Position numbers and translations under genes: made by a program
Shown here: in pieces, positions 14,723 through 32,647 of the stretch
Numbering within the stretch: position 1 is the stretch's first letter
How the letters are laid out: each line of letters begins with the position of its first letter
IMG/VR virus record: IMGVR_UViG_3300032770_000049
Location: 1 to 40,599 of that record
Reading direction: 5' to 3' (one strand)
Origin: a virus
DNA length: 40,599 nucleotides
The notes under the pieces: generated by a model
The model's database searches: none
Told to the model about the DNA's origin: nothing
Seen by the model: the letters and a program-made list of their open reading frames with translations, nothing else

Positions 14723-16177
14723 CTATGACCCGCTTCCATTTGACCCGACCCAACTTCGTCCGTCAATGGCAATGCCGCCCATTACACCCATACATTTGAT
14801 GTTTTGATTATTTGTCCAGAAGTTGCCCATGGTGGGGTCAGGTCCGCCGCCCATACGCTGGGTCGTCGGAATCTCGGTGAACAACTGCGGGTCCTTGAAC
14901 CCCGTCAGTGCCCCCCACTCAATACCGGGCCGCTCCTGGCTGTTCGGATCGAGCGCCATGAACCACGAATACGGGTTGTTGCTGGCGACGATCGCGAGAT
15001 AAGGATCGTAAACGAGCGTCAGGTTTTCCATCGCCCAGTTGCGGACGCGGATCAACTGGCCGACAGTCGCGCTGGTCGAAGCTCCCGGAACGCCGCCCTG
15101 AACCTGGGTCAGATTTTCGAGCATGTTGGCCAAATTCTTGGCCACACCATAATCGAATTTGCCGTACACCAGATTCATCGGGCCGCCCATCATGATCGGG
15201 TCGCCGGTCGAATCCAGTTGCCCCGCGATGATGTTGTAGCAGTCCACGAGCGACTGAATGCTCAGCCGCGGATTCGTAGCGCTGGCACCGTTGGCGGTGC
15301 TCAGAATGTTGTGGAAGCCAGACTCGAAGAGCGCCACGCTGGCGTCTGGAGCGTTCGGCACGCCGACATACGCGCCCGACGTGTTCGGGCCGTTGATGTC
15401 GGCATAGAGACCGGTGATGAACTTCGCGATACCGCGGTTCGCTTTCATCGCGAGGCGGTTCGGGACGTCCTTGAAGATGCCCAAGTCGTCTCCGACAAAG
15501 GCGGCCCAATTGATTGAGGCACTCGCCTGGAAGAGCCAAGGCGAGTAAGTTACCGCCGCGGTGCTCGTTGCCGAGGTCGGAGGCACAGCGCCCAACTGCG
15601 GCGCCGGTCCCAACAGAGCCGACTGCGGAGGCGGAGCGCCCGGGTCGGAGCCGGTGTACGGCGTCGAAAGATTGTCATACATATACCTTTTGACGGTGCG
15701 GAAGTCGCGCAGGTCGGCAACCTTCACGAGCCCCATGTTCGTGATCGGCCAGGCCTTGAAATAGCCGTAATACAACCTGTCGATCACGTCGGCGTACAAA
15801 GCCTGGTAATCCGTCTGCGCCATGGTTTCTCGCAGTCCCAGGAGCCGCCCGTTCACTTTGTACAGGCCGGGGTACTCCTGGCGCAGGTGCTCGACGAAGA
15901 CCGGGTTTCTCGGGTTCATCGCCTCGCGCAAAAAGATCGGCTCGACGCGTCCGCTGATGACGTCGGCCCAGAGGCGAGCGGCCTCGTTGACGCGACGGGC
16001 ATGAGAGGCGGTAGCGTTGCGCCGCGCCTGTTGGTAGCCCTGAAGGTGCGGCTGCAACGCATCGTGACTCCAGGAGTCGAGGCGCGCAACAGGTGCGAAC
16101 CCATTGTCATGCGCTGAGACAGGCCCGAATTGATCGGCTCCGGGTGCGCCGGCGGTTTGCATTCTGATCGATGGCAT
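14723..16177 (-). CDS. major capsid protein, 484 aa
   Basis: Main shell protein of the head. Long alpha/beta protein with an N-terminal helical arm (about 30-100) and a central part with WPITNMGLVKVADLRDFRTVKRY and NPRLSIQSLVDCYNIIAGQ. The C-terminal half includes LTLVYDPYLAIVASNNPYSWFM and a PGIEWGALTGFKDPQLFTEIP segment, as in large HK97-fold capsid proteins. The ATG at 16177 follows GGAGA. It sits directly after the decoration protein and protease genes. Identification rests on composition, size and gene order. Confidence 0.85.
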   Translation of the reverse strand: MPSIRMQTAGAPGADQFGPVSAHDNGFAPVARLDSWSHDALQPHLQGYQQARRNATASHARRVNEAARLWADVISGRVEPIFLREAMNPRNPVFVEHLRQEYPGLYKVNGRLLGLRETMAQTDYQALYADVIDRLYYGYFKAWPITNMGLVKVADLRDFRTVKRYMYDNLSTPYTGSDPGAPPPQSALLGPAPQLGAVPPTSATSTAAVTYSPWLFQASASINWAAFVGDDLGIFKDVPNRLAMKANRGIAKFITGLYADINGPNTSGAYVGVPNAPDASVALFESGFHNILSTANGASATNPRLSIQSLVDCYNIIAGQLDSTGDPIMMGGPMNLVYGKFDYGVAKNLANMLENLTQVQGGVPGASTSATVGQLIRVRNWAMENLTLVYDPYLAIVASNNPYSWFMALDPNSQERPGIEWGALTGFKDPQLFTEIPTTQRMGGGPDPTMGNFWTNNQNIKCMGVMGGIAIDGRSWVGSNGSGS

Positions 16178-16190
16178 GGTCGTTGTCTCC

Positions 16191-16592
16191 TTATCCCACC
16201 GACAGCCGGACAAGTGCCGCTGTGTCGGTTGCGCCGCTCGCGATGTCGTTCCCGCTCGGGTCGAGGTAGCCGAAAGGTGTGTCGCTCGAATCGGCCGAGA
16301 TCCACAGGCCCGTGGTCACGTTGGTTGTGGCGTCCAACGTGCCGCTCGCGTAGAGCTTGTCGCCGTGGTTGATCGCCTCGCCGGTGATCGGCGAGTGCGT
16401 CGAGCTGCCGTACACCGTGCCGGTGAACGTGCCGCTGAAGTAGAACGTCGCGCCGCCGGTGTTCGCCTGATAGTCGTTCAACGCGCAGGCCGGTTCGGAG
16501 CCGACCAACACGAGGTCGCCAGCCTTGACGGTAGACGGGCACAAGCAGAATCGCGGCGATGTCGGCGTGCCCTGATAGACTTGATTTTTCAT
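16191..16592 (-). CDS. capsid decoration (cement) protein, DUF2190-like, 133 aa
   Basis: Small beta-rich protein between protease and major capsid. The patterns AGDLVLVGSEPACALNDYQANTGGATFYFSGTF and ...INHGDKLYASGTLDATTN...GYLDP are typical of the DUF2190 capsid-cement family, which trimerises on head surfaces. ATG at 16592 overlaps the protease stop by 4 bp. Confidence 0.8.
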   Translation of the reverse strand: MKNQVYQGTPTSPRFCLCPSTVKAGDLVLVGSEPACALNDYQANTGGATFYFSGTFTGTVYGSSTHSPITGEAINHGDKLYASGTLDATTNVTTGLWISADSSDTPFGYLDPSGNDIASGATDTAALVRLSVG

Positions 16593-18328
16593 GCCGTCCT
16601 CCCACGGAAAGCTACTTCAGCGATGCGGAAGTTGCCCTTTTCGTCGGGCTGCTCACCGAGCAGGGTCGCCCAGGATTCGCGGTACATGGCCTCGTCGGCC
16701 TTGTCACGCTCGGCCTGTGCTGCCCGCTGCGCCTCGGTGATCTCGACGACCGCGCCAGTGCCCATGCCGGTTACCCTGGAGCCTGCGCCGATCGCCGCGC
16801 CGAATCGCTTCGTCTCGGCGTCGATCGACTCTTTGAACTTCACGAGGTCGAGGGTGCCGTCTTTGATCGGCAGAGATTCCTTGAGTACCGTCTCGATGAC
16901 GTACTCTTTTGCCGCGTCCGGGAGATCGACGTCACGCAGAATGCGGGCGCCCTCCTGGATGGCTTCGCGGCGCGTTTCCTTCTTCGACAGTTGCGCGACG
17001 CTCTCGCGCAGCAGTTTCAGTTCGTCCGCATCCATAGATGCCTCCTGTGTTTGATTTGCGGCGCGCGCCGCCTCGCTAACGAAAAGTCCGCCGGCACCCG
17101 CGCGGGTGACCATATCGACTCCATCGGCACGCTTCAGCGAAGCCAGCAACGGCACGCCGTCACGCATCACAATGCGCCCGTTTTCCTTCATCGGCTCGCC
17201 CCACGCGGCGATGCTCACGCCAGCCCACGGGCCTTTTTCGTCGATGGTCTGCGCGTGGTCGGAAAATGGTTTGATCGGAGCGTACAGACCGGGCCCGTTG
17301 TCTTTTCCAGTGCTCGGGCTGACATATGATTCCATCCAGCGAGCCGGCTCCGCCAGCACTGCGCCCCAGTCCTTTACGCTGCCTTCGGGCCTCGCGGCTT
17401 CTTCGGCTTGCGTCGGATGGTCGATGCGCATCGGCGTGCCTGCGATGAACACTTTCGGGCCGTCCCGCTTGAGCATCTCAGCGGTGTAATACGCGCTTGC
17501 GCCCTTCCCGGGAGTGATTAACTTAACGAGCTTCGTTGCGCCGCTGGATGCCTCGCGAATCGAGACGATATCCTGCTCGAACGCAGTGGCCTCAGTGACG
17601 CGGATCATGCCGTCTTTGGCGAGGTAGCGGTGCGATTCCTTCTTGCTGTCGCCGTCTCCCTGCCACGCTTTCGGCAAATACTTCGTCCAGCCCTTCTTTT
17701 TCGCGATTCTGATGATATTCGCCTTGAGCGCCGCGGGCCCGTAGTTGCCGCTGCCGGCGCGCCCGATGCTGCGAACGGCTGCCATGATGTCGCCAGGCTT
17801 ATTGATGGGGAACGATTTCCCTTTGCCCGCGAAGTCGCCCTCGTCCATCTGGTCGCGCTCGGCCTTGCTGACGAAGCGCTCGAACAGCGGGATCTCGCCC
17901 GCGTAAATCTTGTCGCGCTTCCACGATTCGTACATGGTCGCCATGCCGTCGTCGTCTTCATCGTCCGGCACGTCTTCGTACGTCACCCGCGGGCTGACCT
18001 TCCGCGCTGAGTCCATGTCGAGCTTTGCAGTCGCCGCCACGCCGTCGCCGTTGTCCGTCATCTCGTACGGGCAGGTCATCGTGTCGCCCGAGCACGAGTA
18101 GTACACGTCGCCGTCGCTGTCATCGCCCGCGTGATCGAGGTAGTACGCGTACTTGCCGGTGCCTTTGTGCGCCGCCTGAATCGCCGCGGAGAGCTTCTGC
18201 CCGACCGTCGATGACGTCATGTCCGACGCCGCTTCCTGGAGCTTGACCGCCAGCGCGAGATAGGCGCCGCTCAGCTTTGGGTGCTGTGTCTGCGTGTCGG
18301 CTTCGCGGGCTTCGATCAGTAGTGGCAT
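16589..18328 (-). CDS. prohead protease with fused scaffold, 579 aa
   Basis: Cleaves head proteins during capsid maturation. Layout: an N-terminal extension with an acidic segment (DVPDDEDDDG, about 118-127); a SFPINKPGDIMAAVRSIGRA...YGPAALKANIIRIAKKKGW block (about 171-216), a domain often attached to phage maturation proteases; the protease core (about 260-420) with VFIAGTPMRIDHPTQAEEAARPEGSVKDWG, where the His-Pro pair resembles the catalytic His region; and a charged helical C-terminal scaffold part (435-560). It stands upstream of decoration and capsid genes. Confidence 0.8.
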   Translation of the reverse strand: MPLLIEAREADTQTQHPKLSGAYLALAVKLQEAASDMTSSTVGQKLSAAIQAAHKGTGKYAYYLDHAGDDSDGDVYYSCSGDTMTCPYEMTDNGDGVAATAKLDMDSARKVSPRVTYEDVPDDEDDDGMATMYESWKRDKIYAGEIPLFERFVSKAERDQMDEGDFAGKGKSFPINKPGDIMAAVRSIGRAGSGNYGPAALKANIIRIAKKKGWTKYLPKAWQGDGDSKKESHRYLAKDGMIRVTEATAFEQDIVSIREASSGATKLVKLITPGKGASAYYTAEMLKRDGPKVFIAGTPMRIDHPTQAEEAARPEGSVKDWGAVLAEPARWMESYVSPSTGKDNGPGLYAPIKPFSDHAQTIDEKGPWAGVSIAAWGEPMKENGRIVMRDGVPLLASLKRADGVDMVTRAGAGGLFVSEAARAANQTQEASMDADELKLLRESVAQLSKKETRREAIQEGARILRDVDLPDAAKEYVIETVLKESLPIKDGTLDLVKFKESIDAETKRFGAAIGAGSRVTGMGTGAVVEITEAQRAAQAERDKADEAMYRESWATLLGEQPDEKGNFRIAEVAFRGRTA

Positions 18329-18798
18329 CAGGCCTCCAGCAGTGCGCCGACGAAATCACCCGGGCCGATTCCCTGGATGATCCGAAGCCAGCGCTCGATA
18401 TGGTTGATTTGGCTCTGCACATCGTCAATCGTGTGCTCGTACAGGTCCGGCACGTAGTCGGCGCGGATATTCCATGCGGCCTTGCGCCGGTCGCAGAGCG
18501 CGGTGAAAATCTGAGTGAGTGACGCCAGGTCGCGAGTCAGCAGAGAGCGAATGTCGCCGCCGCCCTGCGTCGGCAGCATCGAGTAGTTCACGTCCTCACC
18601 GAAGTTGTTCACTTGCTTGATCAGGCCATTCAGGTGCATCTCAAGCTGCGTGTGCCATTTCGGGTAGAATTTGCGGGCGAGATCCTTCAGGCCGAGGTTG
18701 CGAATCGCATAGGCATCGACGCGGTATTGCTCCTGCATCGAGGCGAGTTGGCCGCAGGTCGCGAGCAGATCGCCGATGACTTTTGGGTCCGCCTTCAC
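18328..18798 (-). CDS. bacterioferritin-like protein lacking ferroxidase ligands, 156 aa
   Basis: With GTG 18798 as start, the protein begins MKADPKVIGDLL. From memory it aligns without gaps to E. coli bacterioferritin (158 aa) over the first 50 residues, with identities at D4, K6-V7-I8, L11, G16, Q24-Y25, A29, N34, G36-L37-K38, L40 and Y45. The last 80 residues match too (...LLTRDLA..., ...IIQGIG). The metal ligands are replaced: E18 by L, E51 by Q, H54 by M, E94 by L, E127 by V, H130 by Q, and the heme ligand M52 by L. It should fold as a four-helix bundle but not oxidise iron. The start is supported by TATCCT-N6-GTG; an open frame to a TTG at 18834 is less likely. It overlaps the protease gene by 1 bp. 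Confidence 0.75.
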   Translation of the reverse strand: MKADPKVIGDLLATCGQLASMQEQYRVDAYAIRNLGLKDLARKFYPKWHTQLEMHLNGLIKQVNNFGEDVNYSMLPTQGGGDIRSLLTRDLASLTQIFTALCDRRKAAWNIRADYVPDLYEHTIDDVQSQINHIERWLRIIQGIGPGDFVGALLEA

Positions 18799-18804
18799 AA
18801 TCGG

Positions 18805-18834
18805 AGGATAAGCGGTGTTATTGAAAACGTGCAA
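18805..18834 (-). promoter_or_regulatory. leaderless promoter of bacterioferritin-like gene
   Basis: Minus-strand TTGCAC (18829-18834), 18-nt spacer, TATCCT (18805-18810), then exactly 6 nt to the GTG at 18798. The -35 hexamer is that of the 73-396 gene promoter. No Shine-Dalgarno precedes the GTG. Confidence 0.5.
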
Positions 18835-18866: not shown

Positions 18867-19238
18867 ATGGCAGCGAATCGAGAGATCTGTACGAAGTGCA
18901 AAAAGAACCCCCGAAAAGAACCGAACGGGACCAATCCGTGGTGCGCAGAATGCCGCGCCGAGTACATGCGAGAATACTACGCCACGCTTCCGTGGAGGCA
19001 CGAGAGACGCGGCTTACTGCGGGGCCTCGCTGCGATGCGGGAATATGTCGCCAATGAATTTCGCCGCCACACCGTGCGCCCCTTTTTGGGACCGGAGGCT
19101 GCGGCGTTCGTGATGAGCCTGCCAGGGCCACCCGTCGCATCTGAAGACGTGATCGTCTCGCGCGAAGACAGAGAGAAGTTGGTCTTCAGCCCCGAAGCTA
19201 TCGCCGCTGACGAAGACGCGAAGGCTCAGATCCCGTGA
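18867..19238 (+). CDS. Zn-binding hypothetical protein, 123 aa, plus strand
   Basis: N-terminal four-Cys cluster CTKCKKNP...WCAECRAEYMREYY (Cys8, 11, 26 and 29), like the zinc knuckles of phage HNH/endonuclease VII-type proteins, but no His-Asn-His core follows. The remainder is helical and charged, with PGPPVASEDVIVSREDREKLVF near the end. It is oriented against its neighbours. Its 3' end overlaps the convergent radical SAM gene by 13 bp. Function unknown; nucleic-acid binding is plausible. Confidence 0.65.
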   Translation: MAANREICTKCKKNPRKEPNGTNPWCAECRAEYMREYYATLPWRHERRGLLRGLAAMREYVANEFRRHTVRPFLGPEAAAFVMSLPGPPVASEDVIVSREDREKLVFSPEAIAADEDAKAQIP

Positions 19239-20053
19239 TGGATAATCGCCGGCCGCGCCCAGACACGCTGGAAGCGCCTCCACTCGGACGCGGGCCGATA
19301 GCGTTCAGCGCTCGGCGTGTCGGGTTCCCATAGCATCGCGTGAGGCGTGAAACCGATTCTCAGCATGTCCCGCAGCCGTCTATCGGCCAGGGCAAACGTA
19401 TCCTTCGGGTACCCGATCATGACGTAACACCGCAGCCGATGGGAGCACTCGGTGAATCCGGCGGCAAGCATCCTTCGGGCCGCGCTCTCAAGCGTCTCGA
19501 AAGCATCACCGGGATCGTACGCGAAAAAGCAATTCGGCCGTGGCTTCAGGTCAGCCAATAGTCCCACGTGCCAATCGGTGAGAGCTTTCGCCTCCAGCCC
19601 TCCGGTGAACTGGACGCGCCCAGGCTGATTGGCAAGCATCGCGAAGACCATCCTCACATGCCAGTCTGGACAAGCTAGTAGATTATCGTCCAGCACGTCA
19701 CGCCCTGCCTCGAAAGGCCAGATGGGCACGGCGCTCGGGCGCCGCTTCCAGACTCCGCAGAACCAGCAACGGCACGGGCATCCACGCGATGTGAATGTGT
19801 ACCCGGGCTTGATGTAGCGCCCCGGAGTGAACAGTCCATACCCCGGGTCGCCATAGGCCACTCCTCCCACTTTCACTGGCGCTACGTGCTTCCACTGCTC
19901 GGCGAGTTTCTCGGCTTTTGGCTTGTCGGCTGTGAATGTCACGCTGACATGAACTTCGTCGGCCTCCGCGAACAAATCTGGAGGGCCGAAAAAAGCCAGA
20001 TCGTCATCAGGGGTCGCTTTCGTCCTGCGAGGGAAAACACGGGCCAAGCGCAT
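19226..20053 (-). CDS. radical SAM enzyme, 275 aa
   Basis: Contains the 4Fe-4S/SAM motif CPCRCWFC (C-x3-C-x2-C, about residues 92-99) after a TFTSRG strand. An N-terminal segment (ADEVHVSVTFTADKPKAEKL) resembles the Rossmann-like, B12-binding-type domain of one radical SAM subgroup. VLDDNLLACPDWH and VQFTGGLEAKAL are later barrel strands, and CYVMIGYPKDT a C-terminal strand. Substrate unknown. It starts at ATG 20053 with TATGAT 6 nt upstream and no ribosome site. It shares the upstream element TGCTGTAGC, at the same spacing, with the C5 methyltransferase gene, so the two are probably co-regulated. Confidence 0.85.
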   Translation of the reverse strand: MRLARVFPRRTKATPDDDLAFFGPPDLFAEADEVHVSVTFTADKPKAEKLAEQWKHVAPVKVGGVAYGDPGYGLFTPGRYIKPGYTFTSRGCPCRCWFCGVWKRRPSAVPIWPFEAGRDVLDDNLLACPDWHVRMVFAMLANQPGRVQFTGGLEAKALTDWHVGLLADLKPRPNCFFAYDPGDAFETLESAARRMLAAGFTECSHRLRCYVMIGYPKDTFALADRRLRDMLRIGFTPHAMLWEPDTPSAERYRPASEWRRFQRVWARPAIIHHGI

Positions 20054-22312: not shown

Positions 22313-23146
22313 TCACTCTTCGCTGTCGCTCGACTTGCGATAATCACATCCGCAGTCGCAGCCGGGGTGCGCTGTCGGGGCATCGTCGCCGCTGTCGAAG
22401 TCCTCATCGATGGCAATCCATCCTTGATCCGCGTTGGCCTGGCACTCGGGGCAGGCTTCGCCATCTGGGTCCCATTTCTTTTCGTCCATGTCGAGGCTGG
22501 TCGCGATCTGGTGACGGCTGTCGCTGTAGGCGTCATTCGCCTCGGTTTGGGCGATCAGTTCAGCGCGGGTCGTCGTAAAATCGTCGAAGGTTGTTGTGAT
22601 CGCCTTGACCATGTCGTCGTAGCTGCCGCCCGCGTCCCACGCATTGGCCAGCGCATCCTGCAATCGTTCGATGCTGGTCTGATTCAATCCGCCGGTGAGC
22701 TTGCTCAGCGAGTTGCTGCGCAGGTACTCGCCTGCGTAGTCCTCGCCAGCCGCCGCGCTCGCGTCGAGTCCCTTCGCCGCCGCCGTGATCAGGTCGGTGA
22801 TGGCGGAATTGTACTCGCTTTCCTCCGCGCGGGTCGCCGCGAAGCTGAGCGGCTGGAGCGTGGCCGGCATCAGGTTGCGCGCGAAGGTCTTCCCCTGCTG
22901 CGAGGCCTCTTTCACCGGCACCGGGTACAACGTCAACTCGCGCTCGATCTTCGGCCGCACTTCCTTCACCAGCGCTTTCCGCTGCCGCTCAAAGAAATGC
23001 ACCATCACGGCCTTGATGCGTTTGCGGGCTGGCGCGACGTGCTGAGCGTGGCGCGGGTGCTTTAATCCCTTGGCTTCGAGCAGCCGGGCGAGATCGTTAG
23101 CGGCTTCGAGCATTCGCACGAGACTCTTCGCGGTCGCGACGCTCAT
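22313..23146 (-). CDS. Mu gpF-like head morphogenesis protein, 277 aa
   Basis: Minor head protein packaged with the portal. The C-terminal half carries the Mu F signature: TTRAELIAQTEANDAYSDSRHQ, then KKWDPDGEACPECQANADQGWIAIDEDFDSG and HPGCDCGCDY, with Cys/His residues for metal. The N-terminal part (30-110) is helical and basic. The ATG at 23146 overlaps the upstream stop by 4 bp. It is downstream of the portal gene, as usual. Confidence 0.9.
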   Translation of the reverse strand: MSVATAKSLVRMLEAANDLARLLEAKGLKHPRHAQHVAPARKRIKAVMVHFFERQRKALVKEVRPKIERELTLYPVPVKEASQQGKTFARNLMPATLQPLSFAATRAEESEYNSAITDLITAAAKGLDASAAAGEDYAGEYLRSNSLSKLTGGLNQTSIERLQDALANAWDAGGSYDDMVKAITTTFDDFTTTRAELIAQTEANDAYSDSRHQIATSLDMDEKKWDPDGEACPECQANADQGWIAIDEDFDSGDDAPTAHPGCDCGCDYRKSSDSEE

Positions 23147-23382
23147 CGTCGCCTCACAATCGCGAATTCCGGCGTGATGCGCCAGAACTGAGTAGGCCCG
23201 ACCGTCGTGCGCACGAACCGCGTGCCGCATACCGGACAGCGCACGTCGGCGCAGTTATCGCCCAGTCCGCCGGTCGTGAACGCTTTCCGGCAGCACTTAT
23301 CGGCGTCGGGATCGAGCACCCGCAGAGGCTCGGGCGGTTTCGGCGTGCCGCGAGACATCAGCGAGTACAGGTCGTCAGCCAT
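23143..23382 (-). CDS. small Zn-binding protein, 79 aa
   Basis: Contains Cys pairs CCRKAF and CADVRCPVCGTRFV (about 30-60), a likely zinc ribbon, then a basic end. ATG 23382 overlaps the portal stop by 8 bp, and its stop overlaps the gpF-like start by 4 bp. Coupling with portal and head protein implies a minor structural or assembly role; family not recognised. Confidence 0.65.
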   Translation of the reverse strand: MADDLYSLMSRGTPKPPEPLRVLDPDADKCCRKAFTTGGLGDNCADVRCPVCGTRFVRTTVGPTQFWRITPEFAIVRRR

Positions 23383-25345
23383 CGAGCCGCGCCCCCACCG
23401 CTTCGGCCAGCCGCGCAAATGCCTCTTTAACCGCCGCCTTCGCGCCCTGCACCTGGTGAGCCGTCGCGACCGTCGCAGGCACTTCGCCGGGCTGCGGCTG
23501 CGGCCCGCCAGCTTGCGGCTCTGCCTTCGGAATCGGCGGCGTTAGCTCCTGATTCGACCGATCGGGGTCATAGGCATCTTTGCCCTTGCTCGGGTACATC
23601 AGCTCAACAAGCTCCTCAGCGTTCTCGATGTCGAGCAGCCGGAACAAGTTCAGCACGCCCGCTTTCTCGTCGATGCCAACAATCTGGCCGGCGCGGTTGC
23701 CGAGCGTCATGGCCGCCACAGTCGCGTTGATCAGCGCCGGGAGATCGCCCTCGCGGATGGCCGGGAAGTCCACGCGGACCTCGATATCATCGCCCTTCGC
23801 AAGCGCCTTCTTCTCGACGTAGCGCATTCGGCCGTTGCTGTCGAGCGCGCGCTCCGCGGCCTTGATCGTGATCGCGCCAGGATTGGCACATGCCTCGCGG
23901 AGCTTGCCGTTCGGCGCGCGCAGCGACTTCGAGAGCGCGTAGGACACGATGACTGTCAGGTCTTCGATCCACTGCTCCTGGAGCGACAAGAACACGGTCT
24001 CAGTCGGTCTGTCGAGGCTGGTTGCCGTCGCAAGATTGCTCGTCTGCATGTCGCCAAGGAACGTCGGCGGCAGCCCCTTGCACATGCAGCACATGATGAC
24101 GTACCAGCGAACGTCGTCCGGGCTGAACGTGGCGCCCTGAACCTTGAATGCTTCGAGCGTCGTGCCGGGTCCACTGATCCACGATGCGCCCGCGACCGCC
24201 GGCGGATTCGTGTCCCAGATCGGCGCGCCCGGGCCGACCTGTGTTTCCATCTCCTGCTTGATTCCCTCGATGGCCTGCTGGCCGCCCTTGGTGGTGATGT
24301 TGAACGCGAACTGAGAGAGACTCTGCCGCACCGACGCGCACGCCTCCAGGAAGCGCCGCGCCTCTTTCGCCCAGTCGAGCGCGGGGTACAGCAGCGGACA
24401 GCCGAAGAGCCACTTGCCGACTTGGCCGACCTTGCGATGATAGACCGGGTTATCCCACATAACCGGATAGCCCTTGATCATGTCGGGCTTGACCGCTGGA
24501 TTGTAATCGATCGCCGGGTACCAGCATTGCCGCGTCACGGTCGCCTGTGAGCCGCTGGTCGCGTCGTGCTGCCGCTGCGTCCAGATACGCTGGTAGTACC
24601 ACGGCACGTCGGCGTCTTCCGGGTCCGTCCAGATGTCCTGAATCTCGGTCGCGTCGATCATGCGGACATCGACGTCGCCGGTGCTCTTGTCGGTGAAAAA
24701 CACCCAAAACAGATTTCCGTCGCGGTCCTTGCTCTTCTCCGCTTCCATCAACGCGCATCGCCCGAGCACGCGCTTGTTGCGCTCCAGGAACGCTTTGATG
24801 ATGTCGTTGGCATCTGGGTCTTCGCTCGTGATGTCGCAGCCGCGGGCGAACACGTACTGTGCGCACACGTCAATCAGGCGGCGGATGATCGGGTTCTTGA
24901 TGTAATACAGGCGGGTAATTAAAATAATTTGCTGAATTCCCCATCGCGTGAACTCCAGCCACGAGTAGTTGATTTCGCGCTGCCAGTTGACGTTTTGCAA
25001 CAACAATTCGTAGAGGCCGTACGCACCGAGCGGCGAGACGTCGCCCACCGGGCCCGCCTCGCGCAGCCCGAGCGATTCCGCGAGACGGACAGGCAGCGAG
25101 ACGACCGGCGTGTCGCCGTCGCCCAATTGCCGCGGTTGCCACGGGCCCGCGCCGCCCATCGCTTGCGCCTCGCAAATTTCGGCCAGGAAGCGGCGTGCTT
25201 CGTCGAGTTGCCGCTCACGAGTTGCCTGCGCTTCCGAGGCGATGCGCTTCAGTGCGGCGTTCTCTTCGCGGAGTGCGGGTACGGGATTGCGGGGATTCAG
25301 TTTGCGCCAGGCGGCGGCAAGCAGGCGATTGAGGCGTGCTCTCAT
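23375..25345 (-). CDS. portal protein, 656 aa
   Basis: Forms the dodecameric ring through which DNA enters the head. Typical portal landmarks: IQQIILITRLYYIKNPIIRRLIDVCAQYVF (about 137-166), RDGNLFWVFFTD...DVRMIDATEIQDIW, SPDDVRWYVIMCCMCKGLPPTFLGD (crown/wing entry) and TSNLATATSLDRPTE. It is preceded by a 70-residue Ala/Arg/Glu-rich helical N-terminus. A Pro/Gln-rich linker (about 605-630) comes before the C-terminal helix. It follows the terminase-sugar region and is coupled to the HNH gene by ATGA. Confidence 0.92.
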   Translation of the reverse strand: MRARLNRLLAAAWRKLNPRNPVPALREENAALKRIASEAQATRERQLDEARRFLAEICEAQAMGGAGPWQPRQLGDGDTPVVSLPVRLAESLGLREAGPVGDVSPLGAYGLYELLLQNVNWQREINYSWLEFTRWGIQQIILITRLYYIKNPIIRRLIDVCAQYVFARGCDITSEDPDANDIIKAFLERNKRVLGRCALMEAEKSKDRDGNLFWVFFTDKSTGDVDVRMIDATEIQDIWTDPEDADVPWYYQRIWTQRQHDATSGSQATVTRQCWYPAIDYNPAVKPDMIKGYPVMWDNPVYHRKVGQVGKWLFGCPLLYPALDWAKEARRFLEACASVRQSLSQFAFNITTKGGQQAIEGIKQEMETQVGPGAPIWDTNPPAVAGASWISGPGTTLEAFKVQGATFSPDDVRWYVIMCCMCKGLPPTFLGDMQTSNLATATSLDRPTETVFLSLQEQWIEDLTVIVSYALSKSLRAPNGKLREACANPGAITIKAAERALDSNGRMRYVEKKALAKGDDIEVRVDFPAIREGDLPALINATVAAMTLGNRAGQIVGIDEKAGVLNLFRLLDIENAEELVELMYPSKGKDAYDPDRSNQELTPPIPKAEPQAGGPQPQPGEVPATVATAHQVQGAKAAVKEAFARLAEAVGARLDG

Positions 25346-30543: not shown

Positions 30544-30749
30544 TCTGTACTCCTAGTGCGCGGCGCGCCGCTCGCAACAAACGTCACAGATGGCCCAGTT
30601 AATCCAGCTATCGATGTCACGTAGCAGTCGAACTCTCGGCCGCCGGCCGTAACCGTGATCATGCTTGCCGTTTTCAGGGCCCCAATCAACGCGCCCATCA
30701 ATTCGCGCGTGGGGTCTTTCACTTCTGAGCGGCTATCTATCTCGGCCAT
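30540..30749 (-). CDS. small hypothetical protein, 69 aa
   Basis: Helical N-terminus and a beta-rich C-terminus with MITVTAGGREFDCYVTSIAG. Start uncertain: ATG 30749 or ATG 30761; both overlap the upstream glycosyltransferase 3' end. No family recognised. Confidence 0.6.
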   Translation of the reverse strand: MAEIDSRSEVKDPTRELMGALIGALKTASMITVTAGGREFDCYVTSIAGLTGPSVTFVASGAPRTRSTE

Positions 30750-31423
30750 TTCACACCCCATTTCTCGCGTCCAATTCGGTTGCTCTCGCGGATGTCGCCG
30801 CCGCCTGAATTGCCCTCACGCCAGGGCCGGAACGTGCTGCGGAGCTTCGAGTGATCGACGTAGCAGTAATCGCTCACGCCGACCTCGAGACCAGCCTCGC
30901 GCACTCGGAGGCAGTAGTCGATATCTTCGCCGCCGTAGCTCGTGAACCGCTCGTCGAGCAGGCCGACTGTGTCGATTGTGTGGCGCGGAATGTAGACGCA
31001 GACGAACGCGGCGACATCGACGGCACGCGCCCGAATGCGATAGAACTCGCGGCGATACTGCTTGGCGTGCCCCGTGACGTTCGTCGTCGCGGCAATGACA
31101 CCCCATTTTTGATCTGCGCTGGCCAGATCCTTGAACGTCCCATCGTCCAGCAGTGCATCGTCATTCAGCAACACGATGTTATCGTCTTCGGCAGCCATGA
31201 TCCCGAGATTGCAGTTACGCGCGTAGACGAACGGGTCTACACCCATCAGCACTAAGTCACTCGATAAGTCCAGCCCGGCGAATTCAAGCTCTGAGCGCGA
31301 GGGAACTGGGTCGAGATCGTCGATCACGATCACGCGCGCCGTCTCGCCCGCTGCGCGCAGCGCCTTGACGCACGCGGTCAGGTTGTCGATATTGCGCGAC
31401 GGGATGATTATCGAGTAACTCAC
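30737..31423 (-). CDS. glycosyltransferase, GT2, 228 aa
   Basis: YSIIIPSRNIDNLTACVKAL (GT2 strand and helix), VIVIDDLDP, NIVLLNDDALLDDGTF (metal site, about 92-107), and GLLDERFTSYGGEDIDYCLRVREAGLEV (the ED acceptor motif) make this a canonical GT2 enzyme. GTG 31423 follows AGGGGG and overlaps the upstream stop by 4 bp (GTGA). Confidence 0.88.
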   Translation of the reverse strand: MSYSIIIPSRNIDNLTACVKALRAAGETARVIVIDDLDPVPSRSELEFAGLDLSSDLVLMGVDPFVYARNCNLGIMAAEDDNIVLLNDDALLDDGTFKDLASADQKWGVIAATTNVTGHAKQYRREFYRIRARAVDVAAFVCVYIPRHTIDTVGLLDERFTSYGGEDIDYCLRVREAGLEVGVSDYCYVDHSKLRSTFRPWREGNSGGGDIRESNRIGREKWGVKWPR

Positions 31424-31632
31424 TCGACCCCCTTGTATTCTCCGCACCAGTCGTCCTGCTCAACTATAGGCCACTTACCAGACTGATTGAGACGCGGAGC
31501 GCCTAGGGCGACAGGAGGGAACCTCCGACAAATACCGTAAACGTACAGCGTATTTACGTTATCTCCTTTCTCGTTCTCTTCAAATTGTGGCTCCGCAAAA
31601 AAAAGACAACTCCCACATGTGGGCCCTCTCAT
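31420..31632 (-). CDS. Cys-rich small protein, 70 aa
   Basis: Four Cys in the pattern CGSCLFF...GICRRFPPV...WPIVEQDDWCGEY, a recurring family of small phage and bacterial proteins, probably metal-binding (Zn or Fe-S), function unknown. 4-bp overlaps with both flanking glycosyltransferases. Confidence 0.75.
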   Translation of the reverse strand: MRGPTCGSCLFFAEPQFEENEKGDNVNTLYVYGICRRFPPVALGAPRLNQSGKWPIVEQDDWCGEYKGVE

Positions 31633-32477
31633 AACAGTCGCATCCTTTCCGCGCAGTGCTGGTCAAATTCCGGCGCGCGCTTCCACACTTGCCCGCCGCG
31701 CAGCATCACCTCGCGCTTGTACGCCTCCATGTTGCTCCCGTGGATTTCGCACACGAGGCGCGGGTCGCAATGCTGAGAGCCGCTCCTCACGCGCAATTCG
31801 CCAGGCCGAAATGTTTGGTACATTGGCGATTCGCCGGTCTCGATTGACTCGCGCTCGCACACTGGAACGGTTAGCGCCGACACTCCGAGCGTATTCTGAT
31901 GCACCTCGGGATGCTCGGCCCACCATCGCTGATCACCGTGCGGCGCGTCGGGGAACGGATTGCGCTCCCACAACTCGCGGCGGTAGAGTCGTGAGGCATC
32001 GCAGCACCAGGACGCGTTGGGGTTGCTGTAGAGCCAGGATGCGCCCTGATTCGGAACGCAACGGCATTCCCTTAGCGGCTTGCCGCATCCATCGCAGTAA
32101 CGCGTGTCCCAGAACAGCAGCTCGTTGTAGCCGACCATGAGCTTTCCGCTGGCTTCGAGCAGGGCGACTTGCTCCTCCAGGCGCAGCGGGTGCGAGACGT
32201 CATCGGAGTCGAAATGGGCGATGAGATCGGCGCCGAATTGGGTAGCCACGGAGTTAGCCTCGTTGCGGAGCGCCCCGATGGTGTTAAACGCTGGCTCTCG
32301 GGCGTACCACATTTCCGGGTCCCACTCGCCGAGTGACAAAGCAGGCTTGTCCCCTGTGTCCCAGATGACCAGTTTCTTTTTCTCGTACGTCTGCGCGCGG
32401 AACGAGGCGATCGCGCGCCGCACCATCGCTTCGCGGCCGTTGACGAGGAGCACGCAGCAGACGGTAGGCTGACTCAT
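31629..32477 (-). CDS. glycosyltransferase, GT2, 282 aa
   Basis: TVCCVLLVNGREAMVRRAIASFRAQTY, KLVIWDTGD and LIAHFDSDDVSHPLRLEEQVALL (metal site near residue 90) define a GT2 enzyme. A Cys cluster CDGCGKPLRECRC (about 128-140) is inserted, possibly Zn-binding. ATG 32477 overlaps the upstream stop by 4 bp; the open frame further upstream is not used. Confidence 0.86.
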   Translation of the reverse strand: MSQPTVCCVLLVNGREAMVRRAIASFRAQTYEKKKLVIWDTGDKPALSLGEWDPEMWYAREPAFNTIGALRNEANSVATQFGADLIAHFDSDDVSHPLRLEEQVALLEASGKLMVGYNELLFWDTRYCDGCGKPLRECRCVPNQGASWLYSNPNASWCCDASRLYRRELWERNPFPDAPHGDQRWWAEHPEVHQNTLGVSALTVPVCERESIETGESPMYQTFRPGELRVRSGSQHCDPRLVCEIHGSNMEAYKREVMLRGGQVWKRAPEFDQHCAERMRLL

Positions 32478-32647
32478 TGCGAGCTCCCGTACTCGTACCA
32501 CACGTCAGGCCCCTCTGTCTTCGCGCTATCGAGGATTTCGTAAAGCCGCCGTCCGTCCTGCACGTCGATCAGTGTTGGTGGATTTTCCATAAAGCCCGTG
32601 CACGCAAAGCCGCGATTGCACAGCATTGTGACATTCACTTGGCTCAC
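32474..32647 (-). CDS. small hypothetical protein, 57 aa
   Basis: Starts at GTG 32647 (GTGA overlap with the upstream stop). Sequence MSQVNVTMLCNRGFACTGFM then DVQDGRRLYEILDSAKTEGPDVWYEY. No family recognised. Supported by exact coupling at both ends. Confidence 0.6.
   Translation of the reverse strand: MSQVNVTMLCNRGFACTGFMENPPTLIDVQDGRRLYEILDSAKTEGPDVWYEYGSSQ

Follow-up and report, generated by a model that had tools for sequence, protein, structure and literature searches.

The cages formed by ferritins serve as models of protein shells, and most 'dead' ferritin subunits known so far are members of mixed cages that store iron. In bacterioferritin (Bfr), the diiron ligands are the residues E18, E51, H54, E94, E127 and H130, and the heme ligand is M52. 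These ligand positions, which are used in the present analysis, agree with those in PMC12120770. Partial loss of the ferroxidase centre or of the heme Met has precedents in the hetero-bacterioferritins of Magnetospirillum (Bfr1/Bfr2), Shewanella (SoBfr1/2) and Acinetobacter (Bfr/Ftn, 9bts), which form mixed cages and in which the altered subunits lose some ligands only and serve an iron-storing cage. Among viruses, the Bfr of a Bathyarchaeia virus is described as an auxiliary metabolic gene under purifying selection and is judged functional in iron oxidation (PMC10904782), and a virion protein of Kuttervirus is called 'ferritin' by fold prediction in PMC10892097. Among the papers listed by searches of the open-licence PMC literature, none is by its listing about a phage bacterioferritin devoid of the ferroxidase site.

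The window, that is, the whole stretch of DNA analysed here, comprises the 40,599 bases of one virus record and carries a gene, hereafter referred to as BFR, whose product almost certainly belongs to the bacterioferritin superfamily as a divergent, ligand-poor member. BFR resembles Bfr (TIGR00754; E. coli 1bcf) in length, start motif, helix layout, homology over the full length, the residues Q24, Y25 and D90 and the position of H54, but it lacks E18, E51, E94, E127, H130 and M52, scores below the family cut-off and lies in a phage head operon. Unlike the hetero-bacterioferritin subunits, it keeps neither the ferroxidase nor the heme site. With the Bfr of the Bathyarchaeia virus (PMC10904782) it shares its carriage by a virus and purifying selection, whereas the iron site is absent from BFR.

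The BFR gene and its place in the head operon

The genes on the minus strand follow one another in the order terminase, portal, Mu F-like protein, BFR, head maturation protease, decoration-like protein, major capsid protein, major tail protein and tape measure (Table 1). The location of BFR in a head operon, proposed in an earlier note made from the letters of this DNA alone, is thus borne out by its neighbours (the protease, capsid, portal and Mu F-like genes), and the open reading frame of 156 residues with a Bfr-like start described in the same note is real and encoded on the minus strand. The protein begins with V/M-KADPKVIG, and a GTG followed by KADPK is the start common to the BFR homologues of the related records L002 and L004. 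The BFR stop codon and the ATG of the protease share one base (TGATG), while the two genes abut in L004 and are 7 bases apart in L002.

A leaderless start of BFR from the promoter-like stretch immediately upstream (Table 1) is a weak possibility suggested by the sequence. A TA-rich hexamer is found 6-7 nt ahead of the first gene in the BFR locus and likewise in L010 and L012, a weak signal at a score threshold (at least 7/12) that about 9% of random places reach; the corresponding row for L035 is void, as the start motif was not found there. A consensus promoter scan of the minus strand called no promoter, the stretch 18799-18834 included.

Some other genes of the window may be mentioned. The endonuclease VII-like gene, located within the head operon and oriented against it, keeps both its place and its strand in many related phages. 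For a radical SAM gene of the head operon (19226-20053, minus strand; phrog_9298, E 1.5e-16), a search of the related loci gave no counterpart. The terminase and DNA methyltransferase genes are separated by a region with two glycosyltransferase family 2 genes (30737-32501, minus strand).

Table 1. Coordinates of BFR, of selected codons and of neighbouring features in the window
Feature	Position	Strand	Remarks
BFR (bacterioferritin-like gene), 156 aa	18328..18798	-	GTG start (18798-18796), TGA stop (18330-18328); ferroxidase and heme ligands gone, apart probably from H54
Weak promoter-like stretch	18799..18834	-	TTGCAC, 18 nt, TATCCT, 6 nt, GTG; read from sequence
Codon of L18 (E18 in Bfr)	18745..18747	-	L in 3/3 phage proteins, E in 46/46 comparison Bfrs
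Codon of P46, likely helix-B break/insertion site	18661..18663	-	one additional residue in the window protein, three in L002
Codon of H55, aligned with Bfr ligand H54	18634..18636	-	probably kept; gapped alignments
Codon of L94 (E94 in Bfr)	18517..18519	-	alignment
Codon of V127 (E127 in Bfr)	18418..18420	-	alignment
Codon of Q130 (H130 in Bfr)	18409..18411	-	alignment
Head maturation protease gene	16589..18328	-	phrog_15531, E 3.8e-22
Head decoration-like gene	16191..16592	-	phrog_122, E 0.0034; position conserved in relatives
Major capsid protein gene	14723..16177	-	Pfam Phage_capsid_4, E 2.2e-11; phrog_4523
Endonuclease VII-like gene, divergent, other edge of insertion site	18867..19238	+	phrog_1035, E 3.2e-4
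Mu F-like minor head protein gene	22313..23230	-	Pfam Phage_Mu_F, E 5.5e-8
Portal protein gene	23375..25345	-	phrog_10963, E 4.5e-52

Relationship to bacterioferritin and replacement of the ligands

The ungapped identity to the N-terminus of E. coli Bfr (158 aa) on which the earlier note had relied amounts to 17 of the first 50 residues, a number reached by none of 20,000 shuffles of the BFR query, the highest of which gave 12. BLASTP with E. coli Bfr shows 27% identity over the full length (E 6e-5, in a single comparison). The sole NCBIfam match of BFR is TIGR00754 (bfr), with an E-value of 6.1e-4 over residues 1-150 of 157 and a best value of 9.3e-6 among the three complete phage homologues; the match to Pfam Ferritin is weak (E 0.011) and the best E-value of a phmmer search of the PDB is 0.0021. 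When a profile of the three phage proteins was used, the best PDB match had an E-value of 2.2e-6 and more than 30 Bfr or ferritin chains were matched nearly end to end, while a profile-against-profile comparison with Bfr gave an E-value of 1.7e-11. Of 398 Pseudomonadota genomes, 84 contain Bfr-like genes matched by the same three-protein profile (E up to 0.001). The family reached by profile searches is the one named in the earlier note, both as TIGR00754 and as Bfr chains of the PDB. Since BFR does not attain the curated cut-off scores (19.8 bits, with a cut-off of 125.55, for TIGR00754 and 16.2, with a cut-off of 24.5, for Pfam Ferritin), it is to be regarded as a distant relative of Bfr and not as a standard one. 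As regards a relationship to Dps, the best sequence and fold matches listed are all to Bfr or FtnA.

BFR had no match in PHROGs, a single-sequence scan of viral contigs gave no close homologue, and comparison with isolate phages gave matches at chance level only; one weak match, from Aeromonas, was obtained in plasmid records. The related loci were gathered with the neighbour genes of BFR as bait, and no second Bfr match occurs within the phage record.

BFR is predicted to adopt the ferritin four-helix bundle with a C-terminal helix, of the Bfr type. AlphaFold2 run on the three phage rows alone gave a pLDDT of 43 and yet the helix layout of Bfr, and the first 19 Foldseek matches of this model are Bfr chains (E 0.0076 to 0.84, TM about 0.4). 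Addition of 16 Bfr rows resulted in a model with a pLDDT of 90.2 and a pTM of 0.85, which leans on these rows, their inclusion being justified by the sequence homology. Among the 50 PDB matches listed for this second model, all are Bfr or FtnA/Ftn chains with TM values of 0.90-0.94, 0.92 being the value for Bfr chains, and VIA aligns it with 9iig_M over 155 residues at 1.4 A (Z 23.3); two hetero-Bfr chains, 9iig_M and 9h1u_M, are among the solved chains that VIA places closest to it, rows within 1 Z being ties. Structure prediction, with Bfr rows in the alignment, is thus in line with the fold assigned in the earlier note. Its predicted ferritin fold is shared with tailed-phage proteins of the ferritin/Dps-like kind in BFVD (e.g. 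A0A8D9C9X5, Lactobacillus phage Semele; TM up to 0.85), which differ from BFR in that they are about 10-15% identical to it and belong to the Dps or non-heme ferritin types instead of Bfr. The BFVD matches to the model also include 'prohead protease' entries (A0A6J7XDU5 and two others), which would hint at protease-ferritin fusions and are given no weight here.

The diiron centre (five of its six ligands) and the heme ligand are replaced in BFR, mostly by hydrophobic residues, the substitutions relative to E. coli Bfr being E18L, E51Q, M52L, E94L, E127V and H130Q. At the seven ligand positions, the three phage proteins read LQLHLVQ, LDLHLVQ and LAIHLVQ, with L18, L94, V127 and Q130 invariant in all three and the column of the heme ligand M52 occupied by L, L and I, or by E53 in the window with another placement of the gap. 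Forty-six Bfrs were used for comparison (16 from an earlier alignment and the 30 best cellular profile matches, all 30 recovered), and among these, which were picked partly by an initial MKADPKV pattern and by best score and are therefore no random sample of Bfr, E18, E51, H54, E94 and H130 are kept in 46/46 and E127 and M52 in 43/46 each, while no member of the set differs at more than two of these seven sites.

The earlier note had described a protein without any ligand, which is correct for five of the six ferroxidase ligands and for the heme Met and does not extend to H54. In gapped alignments, helix B is longer by one inserted residue and H54 of Bfr is paired with H55, invariant in the three phage proteins, so that this ligand has probably been kept; the replacement of H54 by M in that note is a counting artefact, because residues had been counted without the gap in helix B. 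With the insertion placed at P46 instead, E51 corresponds to L52 and M52 to E53, and both ligands are lost in either placement. The invariant polar residues beyond the former iron site are C15, E23, D28, H49, E53, H55, C102 and H122, and Q24, Y25 and D90 of Bfr are retained. The loss of the ligands makes iron oxidation by BFR itself and heme-mediated release very unlikely.

Selection, distribution and inheritance of BFR

BFR is under purifying selection, and the pattern of ligand loss is conserved in three phages. The dN/dS values for the three pairs of BFR genes are 0.18, 0.20 and 0.19, compared with 0.20-0.24 for the protease and 0.18-0.33 for the capsid gene; rows of the decoration gene involving the window were out of frame and were disregarded. 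The three BFR proteins are 63-80% identical and their complete genes are free of stops.

Most related phages lack BFR, which is an accessory gene and no fixed part of the head module. It is present in 3 of the 16 related virus records that were searched whole, the 13 records without it including several fragments. L003 and L004 seem to be one virus on account of their near-identical match values, and the three matches therefore represent two independent relatives. No BFR lies upstream of the protease in eight loci (L005, L006, L007, L010, L012, L016, L018 and L035), in all of which the DNA is continuous through the protease start. In six of the eight, 82 to 273 bases separate the protease match from a preceding divergent gene like that at 18867-19238, and BFR can thus be viewed as an accessory gene inserted between the intergenic region and the protease.

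In the protease tree, the carriers of BFR group as a single clade with a support of 100/99, or of 97/97 when the first 60 residues are omitted. The capsid tree, in contrast, separates them: three changes are forced, and a tree keeping them together is rejected (p-AU 5e-74). It follows that BFR accompanied the protease allele, by moving or by staying with it, during the exchange of the capsid gene. Physical linkage alone can explain the co-inheritance of BFR with the protease and the neighbourhood. Irrespective of BFR, the conflict between the protease and capsid trees (14723-18328) indicates recombination between both genes in this phage group.

Candidate roles and other viral Bfr-like genes

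The explanation preferred here, tentatively and with somewhat less than even confidence, is that BFR is an inert protein of the Bfr fold that is made with the head genes and has a role in head assembly or in the virion. Its synthesis would be late, alongside that of the protease, decoration and capsid proteins, and it would work as an inert helical bundle, probably oligomeric, without iron chemistry, its partner in head assembly or in the virion being, for instance, the protease or the prohead. It is the position of the gene that points to membership of the virion or prohead. Such an accessory of assembly or of the virion is more likely than an iron store, and the lack of BFR in 13 of the 16 related records implies that it is dispensable for assembly in general. 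With respect to the place of action alone, head assembly or the virion is possible and carries the most weight, though short of an even chance; action neither there nor on host ferritin is conceivable to a slightly lesser degree, and action on host ferritin is rather unlikely. If the preferred explanation is true, a conserved stand-alone relative of Bfr that has hardly any metal ligands and is coupled to a phage head protease would constitute a natural ferritin fold reused without iron, a case testable with one small protein.

The main rival is that BFR acts as a decoy or poison subunit, which co-assembles with host Bfr and lowers the ferroxidase or heme content of the mixed cages, whereby the phage would gain freed iron or disarm the iron storage of its host. 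Ligand-poor subunits are indeed reported in a 24-mer of unequal subunits in Magnetospirillum (Bfr2, PMC6529640) and in a mixed 24-mer in Shewanella (SoBfr2, PMC12120770), and the two hetero-Bfr chains noted above are among the closest solved chains by VIA. However, the cellular hetero subunits have retained the heme Met or the majority of the ligands, whereas in BFR nearly all are gone, and the residues given in PMC6529640 as critical for oligomerisation of E. coli Bfr are partly changed (D56 to N57, E60 to K61 and E128 to Q128, with R in place of K33 and Y45 retained). A late location in the head operon would also be unusual for a host-takeover gene, and a decoy function is considered somewhat improbable.

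An inert homomeric cage that retains the shell and has given up the iron site for a new use, the cargo being, for example, nucleic acid, a small molecule or another metal, is regarded as doubtful. The helix layout and the overall fold are predicted to be intact and invariant polar residues remain outside the former iron site, as such a cage would have it, but with three complete sequences only, this invariance carries little weight. That BFR is a mere passenger (moron), a host Bfr gene captured by chance, decaying and useless to the phage, would agree with its accessory distribution (3/16 records) and is made highly improbable by a dN/dS of about 0.19, by identical replacements in three phages whose proteins are 63-80% identical and by the absence of stops. 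That a helical protein resembles Bfr by chance, for which the single-sequence scores under the curated cut-offs might speak, is refuted at the sequence level by end-to-end colinear profile matches to many Bfrs (E down to 2e-6) and by the outcome of the shuffles (0/20,000), with the KADPK start and Q24-Y25 conserved in addition, and its probability is negligible.

A bearing on the preferred role in head assembly or the virion may be sought in other phages. A scan of viral contigs (IMG/VR) with ordinary Bfrs yielded L039, the L040 group and L044, which resemble the window in having a Bfr gene in or near the head or tail modules and differ from it in that their ligands are intact and their Bfrs form a clade separate from the BFR family. 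L044 is an unrelated phage with different terminase, portal, ClpP-type head protease and capsid families, and its Bfr gene, with the ligands intact and V at M52, ends 12 bases before the ClpP-type head protease gene (region L044:5989-7605); this protease has no meaningful similarity to that of the window (best E 0.23). In L040, a contig of about 106 kb, an intact Bfr is found between the major capsid and tail sheath genes and near a glycosyltransferase (L040:2238-11319), and the contigs L041-L043 carry Bfrs with match values equal to those of L040, while the Bfr gene of L039 lies about 3.4 kb upstream of the portal gene. It might be proposed that tailed phages repeatedly recruited the Bfr fold for head morphogenesis, as an iron-free protease partner in the window and as an intact Bfr in the same slot in L044, but this generalisation is considered unlikely. 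As L044 and the other viral Bfrs keep their ligands, they may store iron and are perhaps no true parallels, and with so few viral cases the link between Bfr and the head protease is a lead and no proof.

Some further records were set aside, namely the Bfr of L036 and L037, since the gene adjoins an integrase in L036 and may belong to a host flank, and that of L038, where the contig ends close by; the phage Y5 and 'Bacteriophage sp.' scaffolds from feces, all carrying Bfr, were left out as unverified records. The presumed counterpart in Vi01 of the Kuttervirus 'ferritin', a choice of gene that is a guess and may be wrong, gave no ferritin match. Host Bfr is reported in CsCl-purified virions of phage AXL1 (PMC9206674), but this may be a co-purified host cage and lends no support to a virion role of BFR. 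The orf120 of LP65, ferritin-like by annotation, borders on the packaging genes and is encoded on the opposite strand.
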